Positions 5,765 to 62,960 of a stretch of DNA of 64,000 nt are shown here, piece after piece. Each line of letters opens with the position of its first letter. The stretch's first letter is position 1. The notes under the pieces were generated by a model. The model saw nothing but the letters and a program-made list of their open reading frames with translations, was not told the DNA's origin and ran no database searches. This stretch comes from a virus. A program made the position numbers and the translations under genes. The stretch is taken from positions 1 through 64,000 of IMG/VR virus record IMGVR_UViG_3300020154_000003, one strand, 5' to 3'.

Positions 5765-5772
5765 ATAAATAC
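5765..5772 (-). promoter_or_regulatory. Late-promoter-like motif upstream of gp32
   Basis: GTATTTAT on the minus strand, preceded by CA rather than the usual TA/AA and lacking the GAAAA extension. It lies 122 nt upstream of gp32, farther than the other copies. It could add late expression to gp32 or be a chance match. Confidence 0.35.
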
Positions 5773-5776
5773 TGCT

Positions 5777-7159
5777 TTACGCAGAAAAAGCTTCATCATT
5801 TACAATGGTAAATCCGATAGGAGATTTTACACTAAAAATTGAATTATTTGACAATTTTAACTCTAAAAAATAATCCTGAGGAACTAACCAACTGGTATCC
5901 AACTCGAACTCATACCCTCTGAATGTTCTATTTACTTGAGTAAAGGGAATTATCTCCATATGAGTTCTACCACCTTGTTTAATGTACAATCTATATGAAA
6001 TATCTAACGGCAAATTGTCATCCTGACTACCATATAATTGTTTAATTAATACTTCAATCTTACGCTTGTCACCTCTTTTGAGATATTCGCCAGATTTTAA
6101 ACCGTGGTAGCTAAAATGGAAATTTTCAGGGTTAATAGTGTTCGACAGATCAAAACTGTAATACTTATCAGAATTAATTAAATAAAAATCCTGTGAGATG
6201 ACTTTAATTTTACTGTTCTGAATTATTGTCCATTGATCATTGAAAATAACTGCATCAGGATATACTGAAGAATCAACACTCAACTCTATTTTATAAACTC
6301 CCTTTTTAACTCTTGTGATATTGTCGCCTGTTATTGTTGTCAACACTTCACCTTCATAATCATAAATGGTTACTGCACTAACTGTCACGTCACCAGCACT
6401 ACTATATAAGTAAAGACTATTCGTCTTATCCATGTAGAAGTATTTTCTATCATCCGTAATTACGTCATCGACAATTGTTTCTATGTAAGGTTCAAATACT
6501 GTGTTAGTGTGACGTAAATGGAATGCTACTGCTTGTCTATATAATGTGGTTAATGCTTCAATGGCATCAGTGAATTTAATTCCTAAACCATAATTAGTTT
6601 CACCGCTGAACAGTATTGCATTTACATAATCAGTAACATCAATTGAAAAATCTTCATTTCCTTTAGGAAAAGATTGAGTCCCAATCACTGTTGATCCTGT
6701 ACTGTTGAATGCTCCTTCACTCTCCCATAACTGACCAGTCTTTCCAGAGTACCAGTTACTCGCCATTGGTGTGATACCAAAATTCATTAAGCTTTCATCA
6801 CTATAAAGCAAATCATAACCAGCACCTTCATCCCAATCCTCTGCTAACGTAAATAACTCAAGCTGGAAACTACTTGCTCGTTCAATTGCCTCACTATATG
6901 ATTTTTTACCTAATAAATCAGGTCTGTTAGCAATTGTATTTTTTAAAACTAATTTGTGTGATGTAATTTGAGATTCGGTAATGCCTTCATTGGATATTTT
7001 AGTAGTTAAGTCATCCAAACCTAATTTGAAGATGATTCTACTGACAGATGCATCAGCAGTACCGTAAGAAACTTCTCCAACAGGATTTTGAGAATTGTTA
7101 GATTCATTACCCTCTATAAGCGTATTGTTTTTCTCAAAATATGATCTGAAAATTGACAT
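5777..7159 (-). CDS. Probable virion protein with DNRLRE-like beta-sandwich region
   Basis: Predicted structural protein of 460 residues. The N-terminal half reads like the DNRLRE/stalk beta-sandwich of surface and virion proteins: a repeated hydrophobic-strand pattern with LAEDWDEGAGYD (~106-117), ASNWYSG, then a DVTDYVNAIL strand and NYGLGIKF. The C-terminal half is beta-rich with Ig-like spacing and ends in FTIVNDEAFSA. A late-promoter motif lies 16 nt before the ATG, which supports a late virion role. Its position in the particle (baseplate, fibre or head decoration) cannot be told from sequence. Confidence 0.6.
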   Translation of the reverse strand: MSIFRSYFEKNNTLIEGNESNNSQNPVGEVSYGTADASVSRIIFKLGLDDLTTKISNEGITESQITSHKLVLKNTIANRPDLLGKKSYSEAIERASSFQLELFTLAEDWDEGAGYDLLYSDESLMNFGITPMASNWYSGKTGQLWESEGAFNSTGSTVIGTQSFPKGNEDFSIDVTDYVNAILFSGETNYGLGIKFTDAIEALTTLYRQAVAFHLRHTNTVFEPYIETIVDDVITDDRKYFYMDKTNSLYLYSSAGDVTVSAVTIYDYEGEVLTTITGDNITRVKKGVYKIELSVDSSVYPDAVIFNDQWTIIQNSKIKVISQDFYLINSDKYYSFDLSNTINPENFHFSYHGLKSGEYLKRGDKRKIEVLIKQLYGSQDDNLPLDISYRLYIKQGGRTHMEIIPFTQVNRTFRGYEFELDTSWLVPQDYFLELKLSNNSIFSVKSPIGFTIVNDEAFSA

Positions 7160-7175
7160 CTATATTAGTTTTCTA

Positions 7176-7183
7176 ATAAATAC
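7176..7183 (-). promoter_or_regulatory. Late promoter motif
   Basis: The minus strand reads TAGTATTTATTAGAAAA, a full match to the late consensus. It ends 16 nt before the start codon at 7159. Confidence 0.75.
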
Positions 7184-7202
7184 TAAAATGGTTAAAATAA
7201 AA

Positions 7203-7222
7203 CCGCACCCTTTACGGTGCGG
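7203..7222 (-). terminator. Intrinsic terminator after the 7263-8003 gene
   Basis: CCGCACC (7203-7209) pairs with GGTGCGG (7216-7222) around a 6-nt loop. The minus strand continues TTTTATTTT. It ends the 8191-7263 transcription unit just upstream of the next late promoter. Confidence 0.85.
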
Positions 7223-7262
7223 AAGTGTTATTTAAGGTTATCTGGTATTCAGAACCTTCCAA

Positions 7263-8003: not shown

Positions 8004-8014
8004 GTCAGAAATAA

Positions 8015-8191
8015 TTAATATTGTTCTCTCAATAATTGCTTACCATCTTTGGTTACAAAAACCTTGTCAACTCTTTCGATCAAACCTTCGCGGTCGCTCA
8101 ATATCATTTTCTTAGCGTTTTTCGCTTTTCTTTTTGAAGAGTCATTCAAGAAATTGTCCAAAGCATTAGTATTTTTTTCTACGTTGTCCAT
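8015..8191 (-). CDS. Small basic late protein, unknown
   Basis: A 58-residue open frame with ATG at 8191 and TAA at 8015. The protein is charged, with a central lysine-rich helix (SSKRKAKNAKKM) and the C-terminal motif DKVFVTKDGKQLL. A full late-promoter motif ends 14 nt upstream of the start, the best support that it is a real gene. It is the first gene of a two-gene late unit with 7263-8003. No family was recognised; a scaffold, core or regulatory role is open. Confidence 0.6.
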   Translation of the reverse strand: MDNVEKNTNALDNFLNDSSKRKAKNAKKMILSDREGLIERVDKVFVTKDGKQLLREQY

Positions 8192-8205
8192 AGTAATATT
8201 TTCTC

Positions 8206-8213
8206 ATAAATAC
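8206..8213 (-). promoter_or_regulatory. Late promoter motif
   Basis: The minus strand reads TAGTATTTATGAGAAAATA, a full consensus match ending 14 nt before the ATG at 8191. It touches the stop codon of the upstream glycan cassette. Confidence 0.75.
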
Positions 8214-10638: not shown

Positions 10639-10659
10639 ATTATTTAACAAATATACAAT

Positions 10660-19282: not shown

Positions 19283-22198
19283 TTAAGGTTTAATGGCTTC
19301 AGTGTTAGCATTTGACTGACCACCTGTTTGAGATGAATCAGTTATTTTTGATCCATTATTGGCTTCTATTTGTGCGGATTCAGCGATTCTAGCAGTCTTG
19401 TAAACACCAACAGGATAATATGTCGAATTTGCGTAGTAGTTGAAACTTTCAGCATTCTGTAGAACATCAATGGCAGACTTCAACGATTGTCCACCAATTA
19501 CACGCATAGTAATGCTTATGTCAGCAATCATAAACTGCATACCCATGCCTTCAGGATTCATGTCCCAAGGAGCGTCAGTATAATCAAAATCAATACTATC
19601 AATGATCACCTTCGTGTGAAAGAAATCACCAATTCTCAACACGCATACTGGTGGTCTTCCGAATACTGAATTACGAGCAGCAGGAATACCCTGACTTTCG
19701 GTCGAATCCAATACTGTTGCGTTACCCTGACGTGTACACTGTTGTAAGAATGTTAATCTTCTATGAAAATCTTCGGGTGTCTGCGAATGAAATACTGGTG
19801 ACAGTGTGCGTTTTTCTGCAGCTTCGAATCCAGTATATTCTTTATCGTTAACATTTTTCAAAACAAACAACCCATCGTTGTTTTGGAAGTTTTCAGCTTC
19901 AGCAATTAATCTCTTATTTGCTTCAATCTGTTCAAGAATTTTATTTCTATCGTTTTTCTGTTGTTCAGTTAATTCAACCTCCTTATATCTAACCGCTCCG
20001 TTTCTAACCAGTACTACCTTTGCATTTCTCTCTGGTTTAACATCCGATGCATACGCAAATTCTGCTTGCGCACCTCTGTCTGAACCATTGGTTGAACCTG
20101 ATGCAACTTTAATTACTTTCACACCAGCTTCTTCCAGCGTTTTACCATGTTCAGTTTTAAACTTTGTTTGAATATATTCATACAACGCCTCAACCCTTCT
20201 TCTTGATAAATCTAAATTATATTGATACTGTTTTGTTTTATCCACATATAGTTTCGATGCAGAACCAACAAAATTTAATGTTACTAAGTCCAATTCACCA
20301 GTATTTGGGTTAAGTACTGATTGAACGAAGTCAGTCACTGTAGAATCGAAACCAACATTTAATCCATCATCGTTGGGTTCGTTACCATCGTCAGTACCGT
20401 TTTCATACGAGCCATCAGGATCAACAACATCCACGTCATTAGGGAAATAATACGTAACATATGTTCCAGATTTAATTACTGGTGTCTGTTGAATTTTATT
20501 TGGTGTAATGGTCTGTAATTGTGCCTCAAGCCTAGAATTTTCAACTTTCTTAGCTTCAATGTCAACGTTCTTCAACTCAGAAGCACTTAATCTACCACCG
20601 AAAGCAAAAAATTTAGCAGCCTCATTATGGCTTCTACCTCTAATCTGTGGTGGATAATCGATAATTAATTTAAATCCTAATCTTGCTATACGCTCTGATG
20701 AACTATATGTATATATAGGTTCACCTCTACCGATGAAGGTTGTAGTTTCATGCTTCGCAATCGAACTTTCACTTAATTGGATGCCGTAAGGAGGAAACCA
20801 CATCACTCTCCCCATATTTTCACCTACTTCGCTCAACGGAACTTTTGTTCCGAAGGCATCACCCAAATATCCTTTGCTGTTTAATCTAAATGCAAGGTTT
20901 TCGATACTAAACATCATGTTCCTGTTGTCGATAACATTTTTCTCTTTATCGAAAATTGGATGCATCTTAGGAATCACATATCTATTTATCACCGATTCTT
21001 TAGGCCCATCATAAATGTTGTTACCATTAAATCTGATCGCTTTTTTATAATTGTTGTAAGGGTCGATAATATTTTGCTGTCTTTCAGTACGAACGTTACC
21101 ATCATTGTCTCTTGTAAGTGGCGAACCATTGTACATAGGATTTCCGTCCTTGTCATACCACTTCTTTTTCGTCTGGTCGATAGATGAGTTACCACCTCTG
21201 GCTTGCATCAAGGCTCTGGTATAAGCCAGCATACCCGTTCTAATGCCGAATTTAGAGGCCATCGTATTTGCACCGTCTCTACCCCAAACAACCTGACCAT
21301 TGACGTTATCCACGCCAAAGCCATAGCTATTATCAACAAAGTCAAAATCTTTGTCCTTAGGTTGATTTGGTAAGTTCTGAGCAGTGTTTCCAACGTAGTT
21401 GGTAGTCTTACCCAACCTACTTTTGTGATTTGCACTACCATATTCAAGATTGTTCTGGCCTTCGATACTTTTAAGATCGGGTATTTGATATTCATCAACC
21501 ACCGTCATAGATGCCTCAAACCCGTTAGGGAAATTTTCAGGGTCATCAGTAGGAAATAATACACGCTCATACCATTCACGGCCAGCAGGGATTATTGACA
21601 AACCTTGACCGTTGGTTGTAGATATAAATGCACTATCACTAGGCTTATATAGGTTTTTATTTAAACTTTCATAAAGAAAATTCAACACCCCTTTACCTGT
21701 GTTTCTCACCAACTCGTTACGCATCATTCGGAATTCTTCGTTGGTTCTGGTTGGGCTTAATGGTGAGGTCACTCGTTGATTACCAGCAATTCTTTCAATG
21801 ATATTTTCAACTGTGGTATTATCCTCATCACGAGTAATACGATAATCTACACGTTTTGTAAATAATTTTGTATTTGGATTACCATCAAAAAGATTGTTGA
21901 AATTTATAGATGGTAAACCAGCAGTAAGGGCGTTTTGTGTCACTCTTTGAGCAAATTGCTTACCTAATTGCTCGATTCCGATCTGTGCAATAGGTGTATT
22001 TGGCCCAATCATCCTACCGATAACCGTATTTTTAAGGTCAAAAGACTTGGTTGGGTTGAAAACAGCAGAAATTCCGTTAATAGCCTTAATTAATAACGGG
22101 TTGTCAATCGCATAAGGATCATTTGGAGTGTATAAGTTTCTGGCTACCAAATTTTCCCTTAAATTTTTTAATTCTTGGCTGTCTTTTAATCCGGGCAT
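19283..22198 (-). CDS. Large late tail/baseplate protein with an internal OmpA-like domain
   Basis: A 971-residue protein, not matched to a T4 gene by eye. The N-terminal ~600 residues are beta-rich and contain many YSS/GR/RxG-type segments typical of phage tail proteins. At about 626-730 there is an OmpA/MotB-like peptidoglycan-binding pattern: LNFVGSASKLYVDK, then YNLDLSRRRVEALYEYI, an ASGS segment and ERNAKVVLV where OmpA has NRRVE. The C-terminal ~200 residues resemble a structural domain (VCVLRIGDFF, DFDYTDAPWDM). A late-promoter motif lies 16 nt upstream. A cell-wall contact role during infection is inferred. Confidence 0.65.
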   Translation of the reverse strand: MPGLKDSQELKNLRENLVARNLYTPNDPYAIDNPLLIKAINGISAVFNPTKSFDLKNTVIGRMIGPNTPIAQIGIEQLGKQFAQRVTQNALTAGLPSINFNNLFDGNPNTKLFTKRVDYRITRDEDNTTVENIIERIAGNQRVTSPLSPTRTNEEFRMMRNELVRNTGKGVLNFLYESLNKNLYKPSDSAFISTTNGQGLSIIPAGREWYERVLFPTDDPENFPNGFEASMTVVDEYQIPDLKSIEGQNNLEYGSANHKSRLGKTTNYVGNTAQNLPNQPKDKDFDFVDNSYGFGVDNVNGQVVWGRDGANTMASKFGIRTGMLAYTRALMQARGGNSSIDQTKKKWYDKDGNPMYNGSPLTRDNDGNVRTERQQNIIDPYNNYKKAIRFNGNNIYDGPKESVINRYVIPKMHPIFDKEKNVIDNRNMMFSIENLAFRLNSKGYLGDAFGTKVPLSEVGENMGRVMWFPPYGIQLSESSIAKHETTTFIGRGEPIYTYSSSERIARLGFKLIIDYPPQIRGRSHNEAAKFFAFGGRLSASELKNVDIEAKKVENSRLEAQLQTITPNKIQQTPVIKSGTYVTYYFPNDVDVVDPDGSYENGTDDGNEPNDDGLNVGFDSTVTDFVQSVLNPNTGELDLVTLNFVGSASKLYVDKTKQYQYNLDLSRRRVEALYEYIQTKFKTEHGKTLEEAGVKVIKVASGSTNGSDRGAQAEFAYASDVKPERNAKVVLVRNGAVRYKEVELTEQQKNDRNKILEQIEANKRLIAEAENFQNNDGLFVLKNVNDKEYTGFEAAEKRTLSPVFHSQTPEDFHRRLTFLQQCTRQGNATVLDSTESQGIPAARNSVFGRPPVCVLRIGDFFHTKVIIDSIDFDYTDAPWDMNPEGMGMQFMIADISITMRVIGGQSLKSAIDVLQNAESFNYYANSTYYPVGVYKTARIAESAQIEANNGSKITDSSQTGGQSNANTEAIKP

Positions 22199-22214: not shown

Positions 22215-22222
22215 ATAAATAC
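22215..22222 (-). promoter_or_regulatory. Late promoter motif
   Basis: The minus strand reads AAGTATTTATGTGAAAAGT, ending 16 nt before the ATG at 22198. Full consensus match. Confidence 0.75.
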
Positions 22223-23046: not shown

Positions 23047-23332
23047 AAAAATATTTCGAAAGGTATTATTATCTGAAAAATTACCTCCTTTAGATAAATA
23101 TGTTCCCATGATTGATGATCATGATGAAATTATTATGTATAGAAGAATTGAAGTCCCTATACTTGGAAGTAGTAATATGTCAACTTTTTATAATATGCGA
23201 GATTTGGCAGGGGATAATACTCCACATGATAACCATCCGATGATTTATTGGCTTGAAGAAGTAACTATTGATGAGTTACTTACAACTTCCTCGCGGCTGA
23301 AGTACCTTGTTGATGTCTTACGGACTGAATAA
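23024..23332 (+). CDS. Small unknown protein overlapping RNase HI
   Basis: A 102-residue frame from the ATG at 23024; the frame extends to a GTG at 23003. No family was recognised. It has no signal peptide or membrane segment; a central EVPILGSSNMSTFYNMRDL segment looks ordered. It overlaps the end of the RNase HI gene by 23 nt, so it is likely coupled to it. Its last 53 nt are antisense to the 3' end of the tape measure gene. Confidence 0.6.
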   Translation: MEQNLSTEKIFRKVLLSEKLPPLDKYVPMIDDHDEIIMYRRIEVPILGSSNMSTFYNMRDLAGDNTPHDNHPMIYWLEEVTIDELLTTSSRLKYLVDVLRTE

Positions 23333-25793
23333 CTGCTTCCCTACCAATATCGAGAACCTTAACCAATCTTTCACGGTTAATCTCAAGAGTAATATCACTC
23401 TTAATTGAAACATTTTTATCCGCAAACTCAACTTGCAGAGGTTTGCTTAATAATGATTTTAACTCAGCGAACATGCTGTTGGAATCGATCTTAGTATTTG
23501 CAATATTTTTTATTGCACTTTCCACTTTTTCAAATTGTCCTGCATTAGCATTAAGAACGACACCGATGTTTTTGAAAGCATCGCCAACCCTTTCAATATT
23601 TTTAGCTTGTGTTCCGATTGCAAGTATCATTGCTAACGCACCTCCACCACCGATAGCACCTAAAATTCCACCAGCAGCTAATGACATTGTGGCAGCACCA
23701 ATCGCAGCAATACCTCCTGCAATTCCAAGTAATTGTTCACCACTTGTAGACTTCGAAAGATCGGCTAACCCTTTCGACATATATCCGATACCAGCACCAG
23801 CGATACCGATAGCAACGCCAATACCTAAGAGAGCACCAGTTATGATTGCAATACCGACCACAGATGTTTCTGCAGCCTTACCTAAAAGTACCAAGCTTAC
23901 AGCCATTAATGGTACTGCAATGCTAATTCCTATTATGGAAAATTTAAGTGCATCTAATTGTTCGGGATTTAAGTCCTTCAAGCTTTTCGCTAAAAATCCA
24001 AACCCTGCTGCGGCAGCACCAATTCCAATACCTGCACCAGCAGCAGCTAAACCAATTGCTTTAAGATTACCAGCCATTGCGCTACCGCCTTTACCAGCAA
24101 CTTTTTGCATACCTCCACCCATGAGACCGCCACCACCTGCAGGAGATGGTGAACTACCTCCTTTTGATTTAAGCATCCCACCGATACCACTCATCATCGG
24201 GCCAACGGTGTTGAATAACTTACCAGCAGCAAGTAAAGTGATCGCTGCACCACCGATGCCTTTGATCCAGCCTTCACCCATCCAATCCTTTAACTTATTG
24301 ATCTTTTGTAGAACCCAATTAACTCCCTCCAGTACAGGAAGAAGAACAGATTTCATTTCGAGCATAGTATTTTTCATCACTTCCTCGAAATTCTGTGAGT
24401 CAATACCTCTTTGTTCTAAAGTTTTTTGTTCTTGCTTTAAAAGTTTAATATCGGACGTAGCTAACTTTGAAATGTCTTTTTGCGCACCATTAACCATCGC
24501 AAAGAACTTACCAGTCTTACTATCGAATTTTGCAATACCTTCGATGTACTCTTGCTCATCCTTAGTTAAGTTCAAACCTAAAGTTTGCTTTTTCATGGCC
24601 TGAACCTGTGCGACTCTACGGGCAGATTCTGCTAAATTTTCATATGACACTCCGAGAGCATCAGCAGCCTGACGTAATCTGTCCTGATCCTGTGCAGTTA
24701 CTGCGAAATCGAATCCGTCTTCAGTTTTACGCATCGTAGCCATACCCTTTGTTAGTTGGGTCAACTTCTTAGCATATTCTGCAGGATCATTTCTTGAAAG
24801 GAATAGTAATTCAAATGGGTCTGACTTTGCAAACTCACCACCTAACACATTTAATTGTGAAGCCATCTCAATAGCACCTTCCAAGCTTCTGGCCATCTTT
24901 GCACTATTGATCGAATCATTAATATCTAGCTTGAATTTCTCTGAGTATTCACTCATTTTAGCCATACCTTTAATACCATCTCTGAAAGAGAACGTGTTAA
25001 GGGTTTTGAAGTTCTGACTTATATTTTTTAATACTTTGGTTGCATTAATACCTAGTCGCTCTGATGAGTCAACAACTCCTTGTACAAATTTTTGACTTCT
25101 TTCAATACTGACACCTAAATTATCAAATTGTCCAACAAGTTTTCCAGCTTGATCAACACCTAAGGCTGTACCCTTTCCAATACTTGAAACTAACTTGAAT
25201 TCTTTCTCAGAAAGTGCTACTGTTCTACTTGTTTCTTCTGAATATGCTGCTTGAGCCTTTGCTAATTCAGCAATAGAAACACCCAATCTTTGAGAATACG
25301 TTGCAGCATTCTGCATGTTTTGTCTTAAGTCGTCTGCCTTACCTGCTGACAACCCTAATTCAAGCGTTACACCTCTGATTGCTTTATCGGCATCCATGAT
25401 GTAACCAGTCATCGCACCAAAACCAAAGTTTCTATCTCCAAAACTGGCAATGGAGTTCTTTATATCTCCAACGACTTTTTCTTGTTTTCTATAAGTTTTT
25501 AGTTGGTTTTCTAGTTGCTTATCAAGACCTTTTGCAGCAATGATTTGCTGTTTTAGATTAGCTAAAGCAGTTTGAGATAGTTTACCCCTACCGCTAACGT
25601 GTCGATTTAATCTATTCTCTAACTTTTCAAGTTCTCTGGCGACTGATAGTCTTTCAAGTTCAGTATTGGCAATATTTTTCTGGAAACTACTCTCAAAGCC
25701 TAAGCTTTCGTTAATCTCCTTCATTATCCGTGCCTTTTCCTCCAACGCATTAGTTGATAGTGGAGTGCCTGAAACTTTTTGCTTTTTAGCCAT
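23280..25793 (-). CDS. Tail tape measure protein
   Basis: Sets tail length and occupies the tail tube lumen. The 837-residue protein has the usual build: an N-terminal helical, Q/K/E-rich region (~1-130) with coiled-coil character, a central helical part, and a long glycine/alanine-rich hydrophobic stretch with several possible membrane segments (~515-735; for example LAAAGAGIGIGAAAAGFGF). A short beta-rich tail follows. It lies directly downstream of the frameshifting chaperone gene, the classic place for a tape measure, and is preceded by a late promoter. T4 gp29 has 590 residues. Confidence 0.85.
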   Translation of the reverse strand: MAKKQKVSGTPLSTNALEEKARIMKEINESLGFESSFQKNIANTELERLSVARELEKLENRLNRHVSGRGKLSQTALANLKQQIIAAKGLDKQLENQLKTYRKQEKVVGDIKNSIASFGDRNFGFGAMTGYIMDADKAIRGVTLELGLSAGKADDLRQNMQNAATYSQRLGVSIAELAKAQAAYSEETSRTVALSEKEFKLVSSIGKGTALGVDQAGKLVGQFDNLGVSIERSQKFVQGVVDSSERLGINATKVLKNISQNFKTLNTFSFRDGIKGMAKMSEYSEKFKLDINDSINSAKMARSLEGAIEMASQLNVLGGEFAKSDPFELLFLSRNDPAEYAKKLTQLTKGMATMRKTEDGFDFAVTAQDQDRLRQAADALGVSYENLAESARRVAQVQAMKKQTLGLNLTKDEQEYIEGIAKFDSKTGKFFAMVNGAQKDISKLATSDIKLLKQEQKTLEQRGIDSQNFEEVMKNTMLEMKSVLLPVLEGVNWVLQKINKLKDWMGEGWIKGIGGAAITLLAAGKLFNTVGPMMSGIGGMLKSKGGSSPSPAGGGGLMGGGMQKVAGKGGSAMAGNLKAIGLAAAGAGIGIGAAAAGFGFLAKSLKDLNPEQLDALKFSIIGISIAVPLMAVSLVLLGKAAETSVVGIAIITGALLGIGVAIGIAGAGIGYMSKGLADLSKSTSGEQLLGIAGGIAAIGAATMSLAAGGILGAIGGGGALAMILAIGTQAKNIERVGDAFKNIGVVLNANAGQFEKVESAIKNIANTKIDSNSMFAELKSLLSKPLQVEFADKNVSIKSDITLEINRERLVKVLDIGREAVIQSVRHQQGTSAARKL

Positions 25794-25808: not shown

Positions 25809-25816
25809 ATAAATAC
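25809..25816 (-). promoter_or_regulatory. Late promoter motif for the tape measure gene
   Basis: The minus strand reads AGGTATTTATCTGAAACG, ending 15 nt before the ATG at 25793. It lies just below a terminator hairpin, so the tape measure is transcribed separately from the chaperone. Confidence 0.72.
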
Positions 25817-27038: not shown

Positions 27039-27046
27039 TTAAATAC
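27039..27046 (-). promoter_or_regulatory. Degenerate late promoter motif
   Basis: The minus strand reads CTGTATTTAATTATAAAG, one mismatch in the core (GTATTTAA), 28 nt before the ATG at 27010. Confidence 0.45.
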
Positions 27047-31399: not shown

Positions 31400-32173
31400 A
31401 TGGCCAAAAAGAGTGTTAAGTTAAAAGATAATTATTTCGGTGAGATAGAAGAAATGGCTGTTATTGCATATAATAATGCAAAATCAATAGAAGAAAAACA
31501 TAGGATATACAACAGTATACTTAAGAAGCCTTTTGAAAAGATGGCTGAAATTGTGTACAAAAGGTATCGCTCAAGGGATAATAAGGGTGGATATGAAATA
31601 GAAGACATCATATCCAACGCCTTGGCTCATCTGATCGAGAATATGCATAAATATGACCCTAACCGAATTAATAAAAACGGTGTAAAAACAAAGGCATATA
31701 GTTATTATCAAACTGTAATTCATAACTACTATAAAGATCATGGTAGGAATAGTTACAAAGAAATGATTAATAATCTTGCGTTCGAAGATCATTTCGATGA
31801 AATAGAATCCAGAGAGGAAAATATGTATGAGATTGATGCAGTTAATGAGGCTGAAATGAATGAACAATTAATTGAATTAATTGTTGAGAAGTTCAGGCAT
31901 AGAATCGACACAGACACAAGCCTTAAGAAGAATGAAATAATTGTCGGTGAAGCAATCATCAATGTTCTAAAAAATTGGCACAGTCTATTCATGGAGGAAA
32001 CTGCTATAGGTAATTATAATAAGAAAATATCCAACAATTTCGCAAAAAATAAGATATTATTCTTCCTTAAAGAAATTACAAATCTTTCAACTAAGGAGAT
32101 ACGATCTTCAATGAAACAGTATAAAGACCTTTATTTTTTGGAAAAAAACCTATTCTTCAAGGAAGAATCCTAA
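31400..32173 (+). CDS. Late-gene RNA polymerase sigma factor, T4 gp55-like
   Basis: Predicted to direct host RNA polymerase to late promoters. The protein (257 residues; T4 gp55 has 185) has the gp55 pattern: PFEKMAEIVYKRY, IEDIISNALAHLIENMHKYDP, then KTKAYSYYQTVIHNYYKD, corresponding to sigma region 2 with the aromatic/basic -10 recognition helix. The C-terminal ~100 residues are helical and charged. The gene ends the phoH operon, directly before the first late-promoter motif of the hub cluster (32189). Confidence 0.85.
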   Translation: MAKKSVKLKDNYFGEIEEMAVIAYNNAKSIEEKHRIYNSILKKPFEKMAEIVYKRYRSRDNKGGYEIEDIISNALAHLIENMHKYDPNRINKNGVKTKAYSYYQTVIHNYYKDHGRNSYKEMINNLAFEDHFDEIESREENMYEIDAVNEAEMNEQLIELIVEKFRHRIDTDTSLKKNEIIVGEAIINVLKNWHSLFMEETAIGNYNKKISNNFAKNKILFFLKEITNLSTKEIRSSMKQYKDLYFLEKNLFFKEES

Positions 32174-32188: not shown

Positions 32189-32196
32189 CTATTTAT
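32189..32196 (+). promoter_or_regulatory. Late promoter motif (one mismatch)
   Basis: CTATTTAT in the context CTACTATTTATAGTTAAAAA ends 16 nt before the ATG at 32213. The spacing is typical of the late set. Confidence 0.6.
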
Positions 32197-36557: not shown

Positions 36558-36565
36558 GTATTTAT
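36558..36565 (+). promoter_or_regulatory. Late promoter motif for the ClpP-like gene
   Basis: TTTAGTATTTATATATGAAAT; the core GTATTTAT ends 36 nt before the ATG at 36602, somewhat farther than usual. Confidence 0.6.
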
Positions 36566-38243: not shown

Positions 38244-38251
38244 GTAAATAC
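38244..38251 (-). promoter_or_regulatory. Late promoter motif (one mismatch), proximal to tail tube gene
   Basis: The minus strand reads AAGTATTTACAAGAAACG, 39 nt before the ATG at 38204. Confidence 0.5.
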
Positions 38252-38296: not shown

Positions 38297-38304
38297 ATAA
38301 ATAC
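38297..38304 (-). promoter_or_regulatory. Late promoter motif, distal to tail tube gene
   Basis: The minus strand reads AAGTATTTATTAGAAAATG, a full consensus match 92 nt before the tail tube ATG. With the nearer copy it gives this highly expressed gene two possible late starts. Confidence 0.65.
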
Positions 38305-38822: not shown

Positions 38823-41546
38823 TTAGTTCTCGAAAGAAGCACCTGAAGGAGAGATTGTGAAGTTCAATCCAATGTATTCTACTGATTTAGTAGGTACGAT
38901 TGAGATTTCGCCATACAATTCATTTCTGTCTCTGCTCTCAGGGGTATTATTAGTATCATCCATTTTAACTTGGAATTGCTCTAATCCTCTTTCTCTCTTA
39001 ACAGTATCCAATATTGGATTAACTTTGTTCAAGAAGCTGTCGATTGTAGTTTGATCATTTTGTTCGAAAACAAGTCTAACCGCGATGTTAGAGATCAATA
39101 CTTTCAATTGCAACAACAATCTTCTAACGTTAACTCTGTCAAGAGCAGATTGTCTCTTTTGTAATGTCTTCTGTCCGAAGATAGCAACGCCAGTTTCAGG
39201 GAATGTTGCCATAGGGTTAATTCTACCGTTGTAAAGCGTGTCTCTTTCTTCAAGAGAAAGTTTTCTTCTTGCTCTCTTAGCATCGGTAACACCTCTTTGT
39301 AAACCTGCAGGAGCGAACCAAGGGAATGCAATGTTGTCATTGAATGCGATTGATTTAACAACCTCAGCAGTTGGAGGAATGTATACGTTTTGATTATTTG
39401 TTGTATCTCTAATTTGAATCCAAGGATAGTAGATTGCAGCGTAGCTAGAATCAATATCTGCAGCATCAAGTAAGTCAACAATGTCTTCAGCTAAAGTAGC
39501 TGTATCAGGCTGATCAGGAGCATCAATGATGTACAATGAGTCTGCTCTTCTTTCTTCAACCAATTCGATACCTGAATTAATAAGTGATAAGTTATCACTG
39601 AAGTTAATACCCGGAGTTGCGAATAAGTTGATAGTTACTTGCTCAGGATTTGCAAAAGTTTCAATTGCATTTGCCCATGCTTGGTAATCAGTAGCTACAG
39701 CAGATGCACTTGCAGCACCGTCATAAATCTGACCACTTGCGTAAAGGTCACCATTGCTTCTTCTTACTCTATGTTCATCCCAACCATCGAAACCACCATA
39801 AGGTACGAAAGTGAATTTTCTACTATTTTTAGCGAAGTATGCGTTTGAATTATCAGCCACATCACTTGCAGTTTGGAATGCTGATTCACCAACTTCGAAT
39901 TCACCGATGATTGTTGCACCATCAGAATATGAACCAGTTGCACCTGAATCTAAGTGGAAACCTTTTGTTTTAAGATAGCCACTAGGAGCGTTACCATTGC
40001 TAGTGCTAATATCTAAACCAGCAAAATTGAATAAGTTTTGGTTGATGCCAGTACCTTCCAAGTTTGCTGCATCATAAGCTTTTTCAGACACACCAAGATA
40101 AGTTCTGTTAACTCTGTCAGTAGTTTCGTAAGATGTTTTATAGAACATTGCAGGTGCTTTAGCGTCACTTCCAAAAGAAGTTGCAGAAGCTGCGAAATCG
40201 TAATAAACATATCCTTCAAAACCAGCAGGGAACGCATCGTTAGGAGCATTAGCATCAAGTTCAAGCATGATGAAATTGCTCTGAATATCGAAATCACCAT
40301 CCGATGTACCGATTCTGTTACCAATATAGTTGTTTAAACCTTTCTGCATTGAGCATCTTAAGAATGACTCAAGAGGCACCATATTATCGTCAGTATCATT
40401 GAAATCACGGACAATAATGTCGAATTCTTTTGAAACTGGATCGATGTTTTGGATTGAAATTTTAATCTCTCTGTTAGCTGCGTTACCGTCAGAAATAGAG
40501 ATGAATTTGAATAATCTCTCAACAGTGTTACCACGCAATTCAGAAACAACCCAAGGAGTCTCAGGAGTTTTAAATGCATCTCTGTAATCTGTGAAGGCTG
40601 AAGATGTTGCTTTAACAAGGGTGCTAGAAACACCATATGCAACGCCATCAGCATCTAATTTCTTAATTAAATCAGGAAATACTGATTCAACATATATTTT
40701 TGTGTTTTTACCTTTTGGTTTATTACCAAGTACATTCGAGATGAAGTCTCTTGAATCAGGATTCAATGATACTACATATTCTTCAGAGCCATCAGCACCA
40801 GTTGCAGTGATTGTGAATTTACCAAACAAGTCACCAGTGCCTGTGTTGGTTGCATTTGAAGTAATTGTTACTGCACTCGCATCAAAAGTTGTTTCAGGAG
40901 AAGCATCTTCAACATCTTCAACAGATGCTCTTGATCTGATGAGAGCAACTACCATGTTTTCGTAGTCAGAAAGAGTGTTAGCAGTAATTGTTCTTGTGAA
41001 ATCTGTAACAGTTCCGCTACCACTAGAGTAAGTAAGAACACTTATTTCGTGTTGGACTGTAGTGAAAAAGCTTCCAGTTTTTGTGTAACCAGTATTAACA
41101 ATGCCAGTCTCTCCAGTTGCTGTGATAGACATACCCAAATATGAGCCATTACTATATGCTTCAACTGTTGATCCTGTTGCTGTTTGTCCTGTTGTTGATG
41201 TGTCAACACCTGCACTAAGCGTTACTGCCCATGCTGGCCCTGCCTGATAACCAGACAAACCAAGAACTCTAGTAACGTAAAGTTGATTTGATTGATCCAA
41301 ATAAGAATTTGCCACATAAGGTAGTTGATATTTCAAATCACCTGAAGGGAATTTCTCAATAGATTGTTCACCAAATCTCGCTCTAAATTGTCCTTTGTCC
41401 TCAATCGCTACTGGTTGAAATGCTGGCCCTTTAGGAGTTTCGCCAACCAAACCAAGGGTGGTTACACCAACTGTTTTGGTTACGAATGATAAGTCTTGTT
41501 CTCTAAATTTTACTCCGGGGCTAACGAATACAAAGTTATTTGCCAT
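38823..41546 (-). CDS. Tail sheath protein, T4 gp18-like
   Basis: Contractile sheath subunit of 907 residues. The N-terminus FVSPGVKFREQDLSF and LGLVGETPKGPAFQPVAI match sheath proteins, and the C-terminal domain holds the typical IFGQKTLQ, RVNVRRLLLQLK and SIVPTKSVEYIGLNFTI segments of gp18/Mu-type sheaths. The protein is long (T4 gp18: 659); the extra length is mainly a T/S/G-rich beta segment at ~115-270 that probably forms surface-exposed domains. The gene has its own late promoter and is followed by a bidirectional terminator. Confidence 0.9.
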   Translation of the reverse strand: MANNFVFVSPGVKFREQDLSFVTKTVGVTTLGLVGETPKGPAFQPVAIEDKGQFRARFGEQSIEKFPSGDLKYQLPYVANSYLDQSNQLYVTRVLGLSGYQAGPAWAVTLSAGVDTSTTGQTATGSTVEAYSNGSYLGMSITATGETGIVNTGYTKTGSFFTTVQHEISVLTYSSGSGTVTDFTRTITANTLSDYENMVVALIRSRASVEDVEDASPETTFDASAVTITSNATNTGTGDLFGKFTITATGADGSEEYVVSLNPDSRDFISNVLGNKPKGKNTKIYVESVFPDLIKKLDADGVAYGVSSTLVKATSSAFTDYRDAFKTPETPWVVSELRGNTVERLFKFISISDGNAANREIKISIQNIDPVSKEFDIIVRDFNDTDDNMVPLESFLRCSMQKGLNNYIGNRIGTSDGDFDIQSNFIMLELDANAPNDAFPAGFEGYVYYDFAASATSFGSDAKAPAMFYKTSYETTDRVNRTYLGVSEKAYDAANLEGTGINQNLFNFAGLDISTSNGNAPSGYLKTKGFHLDSGATGSYSDGATIIGEFEVGESAFQTASDVADNSNAYFAKNSRKFTFVPYGGFDGWDEHRVRRSNGDLYASGQIYDGAASASAVATDYQAWANAIETFANPEQVTINLFATPGINFSDNLSLINSGIELVEERRADSLYIIDAPDQPDTATLAEDIVDLLDAADIDSSYAAIYYPWIQIRDTTNNQNVYIPPTAEVVKSIAFNDNIAFPWFAPAGLQRGVTDAKRARRKLSLEERDTLYNGRINPMATFPETGVAIFGQKTLQKRQSALDRVNVRRLLLQLKVLISNIAVRLVFEQNDQTTIDSFLNKVNPILDTVKRERGLEQFQVKMDDTNNTPESRDRNELYGEISIVPTKSVEYIGLNFTISPSGASFEN

Positions 41547-41644: not shown

Positions 41645-41652
41645 GTATTTAT
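41645..41652 (+). promoter_or_regulatory. Late promoter motif
   Basis: TTGTATTTATAAAAAATAA; the core ends 22 nt before the ATG at 41675. Confidence 0.7.
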
Positions 41653-44448: not shown

Positions 44449-44456
44449 CTATTTAT
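44449..44456 (+). promoter_or_regulatory. Late promoter-like motif (one mismatch)
   Basis: TTAGCTATTTATACGT, only 4 nt before the ATG at 44461. If used as a promoter it would give a nearly leaderless or internally starting transcript, so its use is doubtful. Confidence 0.35.
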
Positions 44457-44460: not shown

Positions 44461-45603
44461 ATGAATGAGCCAATTCAGATTCAGTTAGGAAGTAGTAGAA
44501 GTGTAAACAGTATAAATGTTGACGAATACGTAAATATAGGTCTTCAAAGTAATGAAGTCACGATTTTACCATATAGTCAAACCTCAGTTATAAATGTGGC
44601 TGAAATATTTGATAACGAAAGACAGGCGAGTTTAAATTATAGAATATATGGTGACGTGGATTTTTTGAGTGTTGTTAATGGATTGTTAAAAACTTATACA
44701 AAAGTCTCTGATTTTTTCACAAGGCCATTAATAGGATCGGAACAGCTTGGGCTAACACGGAATCTTTTGAATTGTTTTGATATTTATCTTTGTAAATTAT
44801 CAACTGGTCATACTTCGGGTGCATCGTCATTATATAATACAAGATACGAAATTTTAACAAATCTATCTGACATTGAACTTTACAATTCAGGTTACGGTAA
44901 GAATATCTTCAACGATCAAAAGTATTCCTTTAATTTTAATATAGACGTTGATGTTACTGATATGTGGGACAGTTTCGGTAAACCGATAATGAATCTTTAT
45001 CTGTTCTTTAATTTTAAGCCTGTGATTGAAAAAGGAGAAACAGTTTCAAAAAAATTCTTCATACCTTCTGCTCCAGATCAACCAATAACGTATCAAGTTT
45101 ATAGTAAAGGTGACGTTGTAGATGGTGATTTGGTTTTTTATGAAAAATCGAATTTTGAAGAAGTTCTCATTGAAAGGCAAGAATATTTTGTCACTTTCCC
45201 TTGTACCGATGTGGGCATAAACGTCTTACAATTTAAATATTATCCTTTTGTTCCAGTAAAGTTAAGAGATTTTTCAGATGTTATTGTGAGTGCCAATATT
45301 AGTGGAACTAGTATAAACGATACTGAAATACCTTCATATGCAGTGAAAATCGATAATGATGGTAATTATATTTGGAAAAACATTTTAGAAAATGGATATA
45401 TTGACCCCATCTCAAACTTGGGTGTTAATCATCCCTTTGTTAACAACACACACTATGTATTTACTAATGTAATACTGGATTTAGTACCTGATTTAGACAA
45501 CTCATTTACTCAAACTGCATTTACTAACATTAAGTTTGGCCCGAATACTTTACTTAACAGCAAGCCAATAACTTCACTTAACAACCTTGGGACAAAATGT
45601 TAA
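44461..45603 (+). CDS. Unknown virion protein
   Basis: The 380-residue protein is beta-rich with alternating hydrophobics (QIQLGSSRSVNSINVDEYV, EVTILPYSQTSVINV) and no recognised domain. It overlaps the next gene by 7 nt and follows the large virion gene at 41675 on the same strand. Tail or baseplate membership is inferred from the neighbourhood. Confidence 0.55.
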   Translation: MNEPIQIQLGSSRSVNSINVDEYVNIGLQSNEVTILPYSQTSVINVAEIFDNERQASLNYRIYGDVDFLSVVNGLLKTYTKVSDFFTRPLIGSEQLGLTRNLLNCFDIYLCKLSTGHTSGASSLYNTRYEILTNLSDIELYNSGYGKNIFNDQKYSFNFNIDVDVTDMWDSFGKPIMNLYLFFNFKPVIEKGETVSKKFFIPSAPDQPITYQVYSKGDVVDGDLVFYEKSNFEEVLIERQEYFVTFPCTDVGINVLQFKYYPFVPVKLRDFSDVIVSANISGTSINDTEIPSYAVKIDNDGNYIWKNILENGYIDPISNLGVNHPFVNNTHYVFTNVILDLVPDLDNSFTQTAFTNIKFGPNTLLNSKPITSLNNLGTKC

Positions 45604-46341: not shown

Positions 46342-46349
46342 GTATTTAT
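46342..46349 (+). promoter_or_regulatory. Late promoter motif
   Basis: TTTAGTATTTATTATAAAGT; the core ends 14 nt before the ATG at 46364. Confidence 0.72.
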
Positions 46350-46363: not shown

Positions 46364-47134
46364 ATGGAAAAAAAGTCACTAAATGAGCATATTGATAGAA
46401 TGATAAAAATTTCGGAATACAAAATTCCTGAAACCAAAAGAACTTTGGTTGAAATGTCGTTACCTATCGGTGAAGTGGCCCCAATGGGACAACAACCACA
46501 GCAACAAAATCCTGCTCAGGTAGATCAAGCCTTCGAAAGAGAGGTTGATGCAGCACTTAATCAAATAATGCAGACTTTACCACAAGAATTACAGAAAATA
46601 GCGACCACACAAGGTGATAAAGACGGTCAAATTGAACCAATAGGTCAGGAAAATCAACAACCTGCTGCCCAACCACAAGGTAATCCTGTAGCTGAAGCTG
46701 AATTAAATGAAGCAGTGGGAGCACTGATCGCAGGTGGAGCCTTGGCATTGCCCGCAATAGGTAATTTAGTAGGAAAAGCGATCTCTTTTTTAGGTAAAAG
46801 AGCCGATAGTCAAGTAATTCAAAAGATGGGTGATCGTGTAACCCATGCTGCGGAGCATTTACATCATAAATATGAATCTATTATTGATAGAATTCTCAGT
46901 CCCTTAACGAAAAATCTCGATCCAAACACCAGAAAGTTAATTAACAAAGGCGTTTTTTACGCGATTGTTGCTGCTTTAGGTGGTGCTGGTGCAATTGGAG
47001 CCACACACGCAGTACAAGGAGGTAACATTGGCCTTGCTGCCGTTGAAGGTGGATTGACAGGAGTGAAAGCCAGCGAGTTAGTTGCTGCAGCCCGCACAAT
47101 TATCCCAAGAATTTTGAGCCAAGTAGTTGCGTAA
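46364..47134 (+). CDS. Late protein with LNEHI N-terminal tag and hydrophobic helices
   Basis: A 256-residue protein whose N-terminus (LNEHIDRMIKISEYKIPET, residues 6-24) matches that of the 7263-8003 protein. A TLVE motif follows at about 27-30, similar to the L-x-E sites cut by T4-type prohead proteases. A Q/P-rich linker (~40-110) leads into a G/A-rich hydrophobic segment (ALIAGGALALPAIGNLVG) and a second one (YAIVAALGGAGAIGATHAV). The hydrophobic C-terminal half could insert into membranes. A late promoter lies 14 nt upstream. An internal or ejected virion protein is the favoured guess. Confidence 0.6.
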   Translation: MEKKSLNEHIDRMIKISEYKIPETKRTLVEMSLPIGEVAPMGQQPQQQNPAQVDQAFEREVDAALNQIMQTLPQELQKIATTQGDKDGQIEPIGQENQQPAAQPQGNPVAEAELNEAVGALIAGGALALPAIGNLVGKAISFLGKRADSQVIQKMGDRVTHAAEHLHHKYESIIDRILSPLTKNLDPNTRKLINKGVFYAIVAALGGAGAIGATHAVQGGNIGLAAVEGGLTGVKASELVAAARTIIPRILSQVVA

Positions 47135-53026: not shown

Positions 53027-53028
53027 TC

Positions 53029-53880
53029 TTAACTGAAGGTTTCATCAAATGTCGAGTCGAACGTATTTCCACCTGTGGCTTTAGTTTGGTTGACATCTAA
53101 TTTCATATTATTTTTACTTACTGCAAGACCAACTGATAATTTTGGTACTCTTGAAGTTTTAACTATTTCAAAGTTTTTTTCATTTTGTACAAAAGCAAGC
53201 ACCTTCAACTGGTATACATTAACGTACATTCTATCTCCCTTAATATCCTGAATGTGTTCTTCCTCTAATGTATCACAATGAATTGCGAAAGGATTACCTT
53301 TAATCCAGCAATATGATTGTCTGCTTGAAAAAATATCCAATACTAATTCATCAAGAAGATTCATGTCGTTCTGATATTTTGAGAATAAGCGAACTTCGTA
53401 TGTCATATCGACTGAAGTTGGTTGTGGTACTTTAAATCTAAGATTAACTACTTGTCCATCATCAAAGATGGGAACATCTAAATATGTGAATCTTTTATGT
53501 TGGGCAACCGTATATTTCTTATTACCCATTCTCGTCCCAAACTCCCTTTTAATTCTTCTAACCGTCATGTACGGGGTGAGAACGTTTTGATCATTATCAG
53601 TGAATTGCCATGTTTTTGCGAATTCACCCCATCTTTCCTTTGTCAAATAAAATACTGGAACGTCTTTTCCATCAAGTATTAATTTCATATCTTTGTTTTT
53701 GACAAAATCAAACATTGCAGCATCTATATCCCTAAGTTTGATAGTTCTTGGTAAATAGTTTGTCTTTTGATTGGTTTTGAGCATAAGTTCCTCAATACGG
53801 TCTAAACCGTATTTTAAGTACTCATTTCCTACTTTTATAGGGTTCAAAACCAGATCAATCTTCTTTTTTGGAAGTGCCAT
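53029..53880 (-). CDS. Tail terminator/sheath stabiliser, T4 gp15-like
   Basis: The 283-residue protein (T4 gp15: 272) resembles gp15 in its central part: VPQPTSVDMTYEVRLFSKYQ, then DMNLLDELVLDIF and a long beta segment with RMYVNVYQLKVLAFVQ, as in the T4 'MIYELSIFTRYEDDM' region. The N-terminus begins KKKIDLVLNPIKVGNEYL. Its late promoter lies 12 nt upstream, and two fibre genes follow in the same unit. The gp15 call is based on a partial pattern match and should be checked by profile search. Confidence 0.55.
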   Translation of the reverse strand: MALPKKKIDLVLNPIKVGNEYLKYGLDRIEELMLKTNQKTNYLPRTIKLRDIDAAMFDFVKNKDMKLILDGKDVPVFYLTKERWGEFAKTWQFTDNDQNVLTPYMTVRRIKREFGTRMGNKKYTVAQHKRFTYLDVPIFDDGQVVNLRFKVPQPTSVDMTYEVRLFSKYQNDMNLLDELVLDIFSSRQSYCWIKGNPFAIHCDTLEEEHIQDIKGDRMYVNVYQLKVLAFVQNEKNFEIVKTSRVPKLSVGLAVSKNNMKLDVNQTKATGGNTFDSTFDETFS

Positions 53881-53892: not shown

Positions 53893-53900
53893 ATAAATAC
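53893..53900 (-). promoter_or_regulatory. Late promoter motif
   Basis: The minus strand reads TTCGTATTTATAATAAAAT, ending 12 nt before the ATG at 53880. It drives the gp15-like and both fibre genes. Confidence 0.7.
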
Positions 53901-57145: not shown

Positions 57146-57146
57146 A

Positions 57147-58234: not shown

Positions 58235-58237
58235 ACT

Positions 58238-60986: not shown

Positions 60987-61003
60987 AAAAATGAAAACTT
61001 ACA

Positions 61004-61330
61004 ATGTTAGAACTAATATTGGTTGGCGTAATTCTATGCTGCGTTGTATGTTTATATATCGTTAAAAGGAAAAAAGATAATGCTGAGGCAAAAATTGAAT
61101 CCTTATTAGGTGAAATTGAAACTTTAAAAAAGTTAATTCCATCTGATAAGGATTTACAATTTCTTGAATTTACTGTGGATATGTATATCAAGTATGCAAA
61201 GGACTTTGGTATCCATTCGGAAACACAACATGAAAAAATTGTTACAGAGTTGACCAGAGTTCGAGACCAGTACTTGATTAAGAGTTCTTCATCAATCCAA
61301 CAACATCCTCATGAACAGGAGTCGCAGTAA
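61004..61330 (+). CDS. Small membrane-anchored coiled-coil protein
   Basis: A 108-residue protein with an N-terminal membrane helix (LELILVGVILCCVVCLYIV), a basic stop-transfer KRKK and a helical EAKIESLLGEIETLKKLI segment. The arrangement resembles spanin-like or lysis-inhibition membrane proteins only loosely; no family is claimed. Its last 53 nt are antisense to the end of the gp14-like neck gene. Confidence 0.55.
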   Translation: MLELILVGVILCCVVCLYIVKRKKDNAEAKIESLLGEIETLKKLIPSDKDLQFLEFTVDMYIKYAKDFGIHSETQHEKIVTELTRVRDQYLIKSSSSIQQHPHEQESQ

Positions 61331-61817
61331 TTTTCTTCCAATAAGGTTTAAATCCACCACGGCTTCTGGCAGTAGTATCTGAAACATTGTCTGCTGACGT
61401 AATTTCGAAAAACCTTTCCTTTTCTCCAGAGAAGTTAAATGAAACGTAATTACCTGCATTCATGTCAACACCTTTTTCGGTTAATTCCTCAAGATAAATT
61501 CCAAAAACCATATCGCCAGAATCTTCTCGCGCAATACCATCTTCACCGAAGTATTTTCTTTCACCTTCTTCAACGTCAAGCATGACCGCTAACTCCACAA
61601 CTGGTAGGAATTTCTTATCTGCAGGCTTTGCTTCACCATAAAGATCGTCAACATTAGATTTAAGTACATCAACACGATAATATTTAACTCGGAAGGGAGA
61701 ATCAGTATTCAAATACTCACGACCATACATAACGTCAAGATTAAAACTGTTCTCACTCATGAACAATCCGTATCTTTGTTCTTCCAGATCAATATTTTGC
61801 TTTTTCTTTTTAGCCAT
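61278..61817 (-). CDS. Probable neck protein, T4 gp14-like
   Basis: A 179-residue beta-rich protein with the order seen in gp14-type neck proteins: NVDDLYGEAKPADKKF, then VVELAVMLDVEEG, FGEDGIAREDSGDMVFGIYL, AGNYVSFNFSGEKERFFEI, and a C-terminal charged FKPYWKKITATPVHEDVV. T4 gp14 (256 residues) is longer. It overlaps nothing on its strand and lies 1 nt downstream of the gp13-like gene under one late promoter, matching the T4 gene pair. Moderate confidence; a profile search would decide. Confidence 0.5.
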   Translation of the reverse strand: MAKKKKQNIDLEEQRYGLFMSENSFNLDVMYGREYLNTDSPFRVKYYRVDVLKSNVDDLYGEAKPADKKFLPVVELAVMLDVEEGERKYFGEDGIAREDSGDMVFGIYLEELTEKGVDMNAGNYVSFNFSGEKERFFEITSADNVSDTTARSRGGFKPYWKKITATPVHEDVVGLMKNS

Positions 61818-61818
61818 C

Positions 61819-62937
61819 TTATGCGGTCATAATAGGGAACATTGGAGGTTGGAAACCTCTCTCTTTATTTACGTTTGCAGCAATTTCTGCTCTATCTCTA
61901 GTCAATTGAACAAGCGACAATTTATTCAAGGATTCAGTGATCTTAAGAATGGTCTCATCTTTCAACTGCTTGCCTTCTTCCAATAAATGTCTGTAATCCA
62001 TCGTCAATTCCTTCTGCGTTGCACCAACTTCACCACTGTAAAAACCTCTAATTCCACCGATTGCCATTTTACATTTAGCAATAAATAAATCTCTAATCTG
62101 AACTTTGGCAACACTGTTTAATTTTTCCCATTTAATGATGTCGATGGGAGCATCGCTAGGAAGTTTCACAACATCATTATTGGCTTCCAAGCACTTATCT
62201 CTTCCGATATTGTTGGTATTGTAGTAAAAATACCAGACTTTGGTTCCTTCCATCGATTTACTGAAACCGTTGCTGATTTCATTTCTTTCTCCCGGAACAG
62301 GATACAAATACAACAGTTTGGTTCCATTAGGGCCACCTGTTACACGGTATGTTAATTCAGACTGAAGAATACGTCTTTTTGTGCCCCTATCCTGCGCTGA
62401 AAGCAACAATGAGTATGTGGGCTGTGCGTATTGGGCTGGTCTACCTAAATAACTCCATCCGAAGCTATTGGCGTTCCAATTCGACAATGCGAAAGGATCG
62501 ACCAAACCACTGTCTATTTGAGGCGGGGTAGTCCAGAGCACTTCGTTGATCTCTCTATTGGCTGGAATTATGTAAACTTGGGTGTTTGCTGAGATCGTGA
62601 CATAATCCCTATGGAGAACCCAAGAATCGCCAGATGGAGCGTTCATTCCAAGGCCAACCTGCTTAGAGTAGGCGTAGGTGAAACTCTCCATAAAGTCCGT
62701 AGATTTCGTTGTATAGGCTTCAAAGAAATTGGAGCCATCGACCTGTAAACCTTGCAGGGATACCCACTGCTGCTCTATGAGCCAGTTGTTTACGATCATG
62801 CTGTAGTCCTCAACCACCATTTCAAGATAGGAGTCAAGTTGTTCAGTTTTAAGTTCAAAGGGGCGCAATGGATACCCCAATTCGTGTTTAACTTGTTTGT
62901 ATAATTTTTCTTTATCTACCTTTGAAATCAGTGACAT
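61819..62937 (-). CDS. Probable neck protein, T4 gp13-like
   Basis: A 372-residue protein (T4 gp13: 309) beginning YKQVKHELGYPLRPFELKTE, then QLDSYLEMVVEDYSMIVNNWL, the helical opening typical of gp13 head-completion proteins. It has beta-rich central parts and a C-terminal helix NSVAKVQIRDLFIAKCKMAI with GGIRGFYSGEVG. It is the first gene of a late two-gene unit with the gp14-like gene. Pairing and order support the call more than any single motif. Confidence 0.55.
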   Translation of the reverse strand: MSLISKVDKEKLYKQVKHELGYPLRPFELKTEQLDSYLEMVVEDYSMIVNNWLIEQQWVSLQGLQVDGSNFFEAYTTKSTDFMESFTYAYSKQVGLGMNAPSGDSWVLHRDYVTISANTQVYIIPANREINEVLWTTPPQIDSGLVDPFALSNWNANSFGWSYLGRPAQYAQPTYSLLLSAQDRGTKRRILQSELTYRVTGGPNGTKLLYLYPVPGERNEISNGFSKSMEGTKVWYFYYNTNNIGRDKCLEANNDVVKLPSDAPIDIIKWEKLNSVAKVQIRDLFIAKCKMAIGGIRGFYSGEVGATQKELTMDYRHLLEEGKQLKDETILKITESLNKLSLVQLTRDRAEIAANVNKERGFQPPMFPIMTA

Positions 62938-62952
62938 AATTCGTTATTTTAC

Positions 62953-62960
62953 ATAAATAC
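62953..62960 (-). promoter_or_regulatory. Late promoter motif for neck genes
   Basis: The minus strand reads TTAGTATTTATGTAAAATAA, ending 15 nt before the ATG at 62937. Confidence 0.75.

Follow-up and report, generated by a model that had tools for sequence, protein, structure and literature searches.

The window analysed here, bases 1-64000 of the 366,038-bp virus record IMGVR_UViG_3300020154_000003, contains tail tube, tail sheath and baseplate hub genes, a gene for a gp55-like sigma factor and, in front of genes on both strands, repeated copies of the AT-rich octamer GTATTTAT, which an initial annotation had proposed as the core of a phage late promoter. The octamer was analysed in the window and in the whole record. 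Genes were called mechanically throughout the record (ATG starts plus a codon score), and k-mer enrichment was measured over the 60 nt upstream of each called gene against a first-order Markov model of the upstream regions (Markov-1) or against genome density; in the window, 100 dinucleotide shuffles covering both strands served as background. An unconstrained ZOOPS (zero or one occurrence per sequence) expectation-maximisation search converged on the general A-rich composition of upstream regions and was dropped for k-mer enrichment, anchored matrices and a scan controlled for false discovery rate (FDR).

A conserved element upstream of virion genes

On its two strands the window holds 14 copies of GTATTTAT, a number that none of the 100 shuffles reached (mean 5.5, standard deviation 2.6). 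Over the whole record, to which the counts for this phage refer from here on, 64 of its 87 copies are intergenic, the intergenic share of the record being 18%. The upstream test that the initial annotation had suggested for the full genome came out in its favour: GTATTTAT is the top-ranked 8-mer upstream of genes and lies within 60 nt of 45 of them, where 1.5 (Markov-1) or 2.8 (genome density) would be expected, and its reverse complement is found in the upstream regions of only 7 genes. A matrix scan at 10% FDR called 58 sites, whose matrix reads A(71%)-G(90%)-TATTTAT-nnnn-A-A, and at sites 9 nt or more from the ATG, positions 12 and 13 counted from the G are A in 93% each. The full motif is aGTATTTATnnnnAA. 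The extension nnGAAAA, which had been thought to recur on many copies, did not hold up, since G occupies the third position past the core in only about 22-28% and it is the AA at positions 12-13 that is conserved (nnnnAA). No -35 element was found: in the stretch preceding the core (-45 to -1), every column stays at or below 0.5 bit. None of the 171 abutting genes (upstream gap <10 nt) carries the motif, and a terminator-like hairpin sometimes directly precedes it.

As the initial annotation had indicated, the motif belongs largely to virion genes on both strands: 38 of the 45 motif genes are in the virion regions (0-100 kb and beyond 279 kb of the record). They include homologues of the large terminase and the portal (PHROGs), an endolysin-like protein, a ClpP-like protease and, by similarity to annotated genes of Flavobacterium phage immuto (NC_055915.1), homologues of the prohead protease, tail tube and baseplate hub. 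The expected absence from early genes was also seen, in that no upstream motif was found at the recA-like, exonuclease, single-stranded-DNA-binding, primase, ThyA and RNR genes of this phage. A second promoter class of the record, described at the end, has just 5 of 33 genes in the virion regions (Fisher p=6e-10 against 38/45), and no gene is shared between the two.

Conservation of the element among relatives

When IMG/VR was queried with an alignment of the sigma factor, at least 468 environmental loci with relatives of it were recovered; this query superseded a single-sequence search of the same database, which had given no match. Across 57 non-redundant loci with sigma relatives, TATTTAT is the top upstream 7-mer (148 vs 21.6 expected) and stands upstream of at least one gene in all 57, and the T4 late octamer TATAAATA occurs 21 times against 8.6 expected. 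This phage mainly has G in front of the core, and the greater part of the clade has A or C there. De novo analysis of the two nearest relatives in the sigma tree again placed TATTTAT first (32 vs 3.1 and 45 vs 3.0), preceded by G/A in one and A/G/C in the other. The octamer GTATTTAT itself is not enriched in immuto, Microcystis phage Mel-JY01 (PP395634.1) or LR756508, in the first two because their front base is A/C; the core TATTTAT is enriched in both, so that the motif is conserved there after all, and [A/C]TATTTAT precedes their virion genes.

Orthologous genes carry the motif in common. The portal and tube genes of this phage, immuto and Mel-JY01 all have nTATTTA[TC] (GTATTTAC for the tube here), and the sheath and terminase genes have the motif in both this phage and immuto. 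The orthologues of the tail tube and of the baseplate hub subunit in immuto and Mel-JY01 have ATATTTAT upstream, and that of the tail sheath in immuto has ATATTTATaataaa 26 nt before its ATG. Flavobacterium phage FCL-2, taken as a negative control without this system since tblastn found no such sigma factor there, has the motif once against 1.4 expected. The observed motif is real, positionally constrained and clade-wide; far from being special to this phage, it occurs across a large clade, preceded by A, C or G.

The host is probably a member of the Bacteroidota, since this is the phylum of immuto's host, Shine-Dalgarno sequences are absent (9% vs 7% in the control), host-type TTG-N17-21-TAnnTTTG sites are enriched (16 vs 2.9 expected) and Flavobacteriia bins are found among the relatives in genome collections. 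Mel-JY01 has 14 promoters of the type TTG-N17-21-TAnnTTTG against 2.6 expected. Since it combines Bacteroidota-type promoters with the same late motif, it may in fact infect a member of the Bacteroidota that accompanied Microcystis in the culture. Immuto, in its region 60-77 kb, shows a second promoter-like class of its own, TATATTTAGgTATCaATaattAAAAC, in front of small genes; a TTG lying about 20 nt farther upstream points to a host-type early promoter in variant form.

The gp55-like sigma factor

The protein encoded at 31400 matches Sigma70_r2 at E=8.6e-4, below the cut-off. Its designation as gp55-like was borne out by profile-profile comparison, in which the sigma family from four genomes matched an alignment of seven T4-type gp55s over region 2 (95%, E 2e-8); a family alignment with 40 members gave E 1.3e-8. 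Searches of immuto, LR756508 and Mel-JY01 gave no sigma-70 region 2 domain over the cut-off; the gp55-like protein itself matched only weakly, in LR756508.

In the cryo-electron microscopy structure of the T4 complex, gp55 residue Y97 stacks on A-12 and N13 contacts A-9 (PMC7892883). The tyrosine equivalent to Y97 is invariant in 11/11 sequences of the joint alignment. The N13 position is invariant in the seven gp55s and is G, T or D in the sigma family here, and that of T99 (A-8) holds Q or other small or polar residues. This residue pattern would fit the base changes of the motif, with A-12 and A-8 kept and A-9 replaced by T. A phage RNA polymerase (RNAP) beta' N-terminal domain (PF04997) was not found, and a profile search for AsiA (PF09010) carries no weight, its control itself having given no match.

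Spacing to the start codon

In 47 of 153 cases from the 57 loci, TATTTAT lies 4 nt (27) or 5 nt (20) from the ATG, with a sharp wall at 4 nt: none is at 3 nt and one is at 2 nt. In this phage eight sites are at exactly 4 nt and none at 1-3 or 5-6 nt, whereas the minimum in T4 is 13 nt (range 13-34 plus one at 73). A start-codon artefact behind the peak was rejected, as the next Met is usually >30 residues downstream, N-termini are conserved in register in 53/58 testable genes, and control 7-mers are flat (of 21 with the same composition, none but TATTTAT exceeds 5 at 4-5 nt). At the sites with longer leaders, the two positions matching the start are 84-89% purine and about 1% C, as a start site should be. 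On the simplest interpretation, transcription of the 4-5 nt class starts at the A of AUG, and since the start would coincide with the start codon these mRNAs would be leaderless. The short-spacing class is rare in the two nearest relatives, so its frequency varies within the clade.

The short spacing, with its predicted leaderless class, is new here and would be the most interesting addition to what is known of such promoters. Leaderless mRNAs amount to 5.5% in Flavobacterium psychrophilum (PMC9723704), and about 3.7% of the 5' untranslated regions of Bacteroides thetaiotaomicron are under 10 nt (PMC7366714). The reading therefore predicts leaderless late mRNAs in hosts that are mostly without Shine-Dalgarno sequences and in which leaderless mRNAs are rare.

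Relation to the T4 late promoter

T4, run through the same pipeline as a positive control, gave TATAAATA first (20 vs 1.2 expected), and 32 perfect late sites were counted, which is also the published number (PMC2988020). The T4 late promoter, used with gp55, gp33 and gp45 (PMC2988020, PMC7892883), and the element described here are each a single AT-rich -10-like octamer without a -35 element. In both phages it stands before virion genes on both strands, a sigma-region-2-type factor is encoded, A is kept at -12 and -8, and the start region is A/T-rich. They differ in the core, which is TATTTATa here and matches TATAAATA at 6/8 positions, with T at -10/-9; in the extra front base (G, or A/C in relatives); in the distance from the box to the inferred start, which is shorter here by about 1-2 nt (T4 numbering -13 to -6); in the much shorter minimum spacing to the ATG; and in the gp45-type clamp, which was not detected here.

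The initial annotation had described the motif as differing from T4 in orientation. TATTTATA and TATAAATA are indeed exact reverse complements, but the claim of a different orientation fails: since the octamer is nearly palindromic, the two also match in the same orientation at 6/8 positions (T-13 A-12 T-11 [AA->TT] A-8 T-7 A-6). Since sigma region 2 reads the non-template strand, a same-strand change of AA to TT would be enough and no inversion is needed. Octamer drift is likewise seen among T4 relatives (KVP40, 44RR, S-PM2 and Aeh1; reviewed in PMC2988020). In Aeh1 the change is a/gC at -13/-12, whereas here it is at -10/-9 and extends throughout a clade. The late-promoter reading has good support, and the motif is best taken as a novel form of the T4 element; the open-access literature searched yielded neither a TATTTAT late promoter nor any study of promoters in these phages. 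The motif would work like the T4 promoter, though it may not belong in full to the clamp-activated T4 system.

Proposed reading of the element and its alternatives

We propose, with a probability of roughly 0.8, that aGTATTTATnnnnAA is the late promoter of this T4-related jumbo phage and is read by its gp55-like sigma factor with the host RNAP core. The sigma factor would bind the host core and recognise TATTTATa, the only -10-like element, in the non-template strand without the help of a -35 element. Transcription would start at the A or G found 12-13 positions into the motif (leading G = 0) and would serve head, tail, baseplate, packaging and lysis genes, presumably late in infection. The element would be the T4 box with AA changed to TT at -10/-9 and with A-12 and A-8 retained, the two bases that T4 gp55 puts into deep pockets. 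At a minority of genes, where exactly 4 nt separate the box from the ATG (4-5 nt in relatives), the start would be the A of AUG and the mRNA leaderless. We also incline, by a narrow degree, to the wider view that the late promoter TATTTATa has been re-specified across a T4-related Bacteroidota phage lineage, often fused to the start codon, with a sizeable leaderless late fraction and possibly no clamp coupling to replication.

Several findings weigh against this proposal. Seven of the 45 motif genes are outside the virion regions, and no exact copy precedes the major capsid gene itself (ATATTTAA lies 6 nt upstream), which would depend on read-through from 67410. The sigma factor is only 13-19% identical to T4 gp55; its predicted structure matched solved sigma factors weakly (best E 0.14), the comparison giving no significant match, with several sigma factors among the top matches. 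Its pairing with the motif is drawn from co-occurrence and homology, and the distant relative LR756508 has few copies of the motif. A T4-type clamp (gp45; PF02916, PF09116) over the cut-off was found in 0/4 clade genomes (T4 control, PF09116 4e-53), and no DnaN-type clamp (PF02767) passed the cut-off, though a diverged clamp may be present. Since neither type was detected, the clamp-coupled activation of T4 may be missing or unrecognised in the clade.

A promoter whose reader is the host housekeeping sigma factor, or a different phage sigma, is an unlikely alternative. The Bacteroidota housekeeping box TAnnTTTG, placed at -12 to -5 as the -7 box of F. psychrophilum (PMC9723704), has a similar distance from its TA step to the start and belongs to the same probable hosts. 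The enrichment of host-type sites in this phage is in keeping with such a reader, and since they are enriched the host sigma is probably used early; two ECF (extracytoplasmic function) sigma factors are also phage-encoded. However, TATTTAT has A and T where the host box needs TTG, and a separate class with that box is present in these phages. The ECF class has a motif of its own, AAC-N16-CGTA, and immuto and Mel-JY01 have the late motif without a sigma-70 region 2 domain over the cut-off. Moreover, every one of the 57 loci with a gp55-like gene carries the motif and FCL-2 does not.

Far less probable still is a role in translation initiation or at the mRNA level, in which an A/T-rich signal in the 5' leader would replace the Shine-Dalgarno sequence and be no promoter at all. 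Its closeness to the ATG, the A-rich stretch before the ATG and the lack of Shine-Dalgarno sequences in this phage would suit such a signal. The abutting genes need translation too, and their complete lack of the motif argues against it, as do a distance that ranges over 4-50 nt, the concentration in virion regions, the mutual exclusion with the second promoter class, and Mel-JY01, which has both the motif and a separate Shine-Dalgarno sequence (31%). An inverted T4 promoter transcribing away from the gene (antisense), for which only the exact reverse complementarity speaks, was rejected as scarcely credible on the strand statistics (45 sense vs 7) and the constrained spacing to the sense ATG.

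A late promoter read by the gp55-like sigma factor would provide a sequence-defined rule for a large and mostly uncultured phage group, comprising at least the 468 loci with sigma relatives, so that late operons could be annotated from sequence. It would also offer a natural series for a change of base preference in the sigma region 2 pocket, from A-9 in T4 to T-9 with N13 no longer conserved and A-12/Y97 kept.

Sites in the window

The eight principal sites of the initial annotation, so marked in Table 1, are all exact copies of GTATTTAT oriented like the gene, with an ATG 12-22 nt downstream. Its farther or weaker sites were a mixture: those at 5765, 36558, 38297 and 41602 are exact, and those at 27039, 32189, 38244 and 44449 are variants. 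The copy at 5765, which is 122 nt from the next start, and two exact copies that had been missed, at 41721 (-) and 43434 (+), each within a gene, are probably chance occurrences, since they lack the AA that follows the core at real sites.

Table 1. Putative late promoter sites and associated genes in the window; distances to the ATG are counted from the end of the motif.
Feature	Position	Strand	Context
Core GTATTTAT (principal)	7176..7183	-	16 nt before gene 5777-7159(-)
Late promoter core (principal)	8206..8213	-	14 nt before small open reading frame (ORF) 8015-8191(-)
Late promoter core (principal)	22215..22222	-	16 nt before gene 19283-22198(-)
Late promoter core (principal)	25809..25816	-	15 nt before gene 23280-25793(-)
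Variant GTATTTAA	27039..27046	-	28 nt before gene 26060-27010(-), whose homologue in immuto is annotated as baseplate hub subunit
Gp55-like sigma factor, 257 aa, proposed motif reader	31400..32173	+	Sigma70_r2, gp55 profile-profile, 40-member family alignment
Variant CTATTTAT	32189..32196	+	16 nt before gene 32213-32587(+), adjoining sigma gene
Late promoter core	36558..36565	+	36 nt before gene 36602-37327(+), ClpP-like prohead protease
Variant GTATTTAC	38244..38251	-	39 nt before tail tube gene 37716-38204(-)
Exact core	38297..38304	-	92 nt before tail tube gene 37716-38204(-)
Tail sheath, virion gene under motif	38823..41546	-	PHROG tail sheath E=1.5e-65
Core then AAAAAA	41602..41609	-	55 nt before tail sheath gene 38823-41546(-)
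Late promoter core (principal)	41645..41652	+	22 nt before gene 41675-43813(+); divergent with sheath promoter
Variant CTATTTAT	44449..44456	+	Exactly 4 nt before ATG of 44461-45603(+); predicted leaderless late promoter
Late promoter core (principal)	46342..46349	+	14 nt before gene 46364-47134(+); Mel-JY01 orthologue has ATATTTAT
Late promoter core (principal)	53893..53900	-	12 nt before gene 53029-53880(-)
Late promoter core (principal)	62953..62960	-	15 nt before gene 61819-62937(-)

Two different prohead-protease-type genes are present, the ClpP-like one of the table and a gp21-like one at record 68995-69729(-). Short ORFs at record 121882-122148(+) and 139539-140153(+) resemble part of the major capsid protein and are far from the capsid gene at 65670-67340; they are possibly capsid paralogues or shared domains.

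A second promoter class and tRNA genes

The second promoter class, AAC-N16-CGTA(TAAT), precedes 35 genes at a spacing of exactly 16 and 0-5 genes at other spacings; in the window it lies upstream of 43860-44360(-), 54299(+) and 56412(+). It was absent from the relatives. Of its 33 genes compared above, 28 are outside the virion regions, and its members include homologues of rIIA and polynucleotide kinase, which are not late genes in T4. The two ECF sigma genes are at record 175356-175919(+) and 300487-301059(-), and the former has AAC-N16-CGT upstream of itself, which raises the question of whether it might be autoregulated. The fixed spacing of 16 is the signature of ECF sigma factors, and the class is possibly a phage-encoded ECF regulon of middle genes.

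About 52 transfer RNA (tRNA) genes lie at record 89-126 kb, two of them with the anticodon CTA (amber suppressor-like). Since TAG ends just 1/81 long ORFs, this stop codon may be partly read through or recoded.

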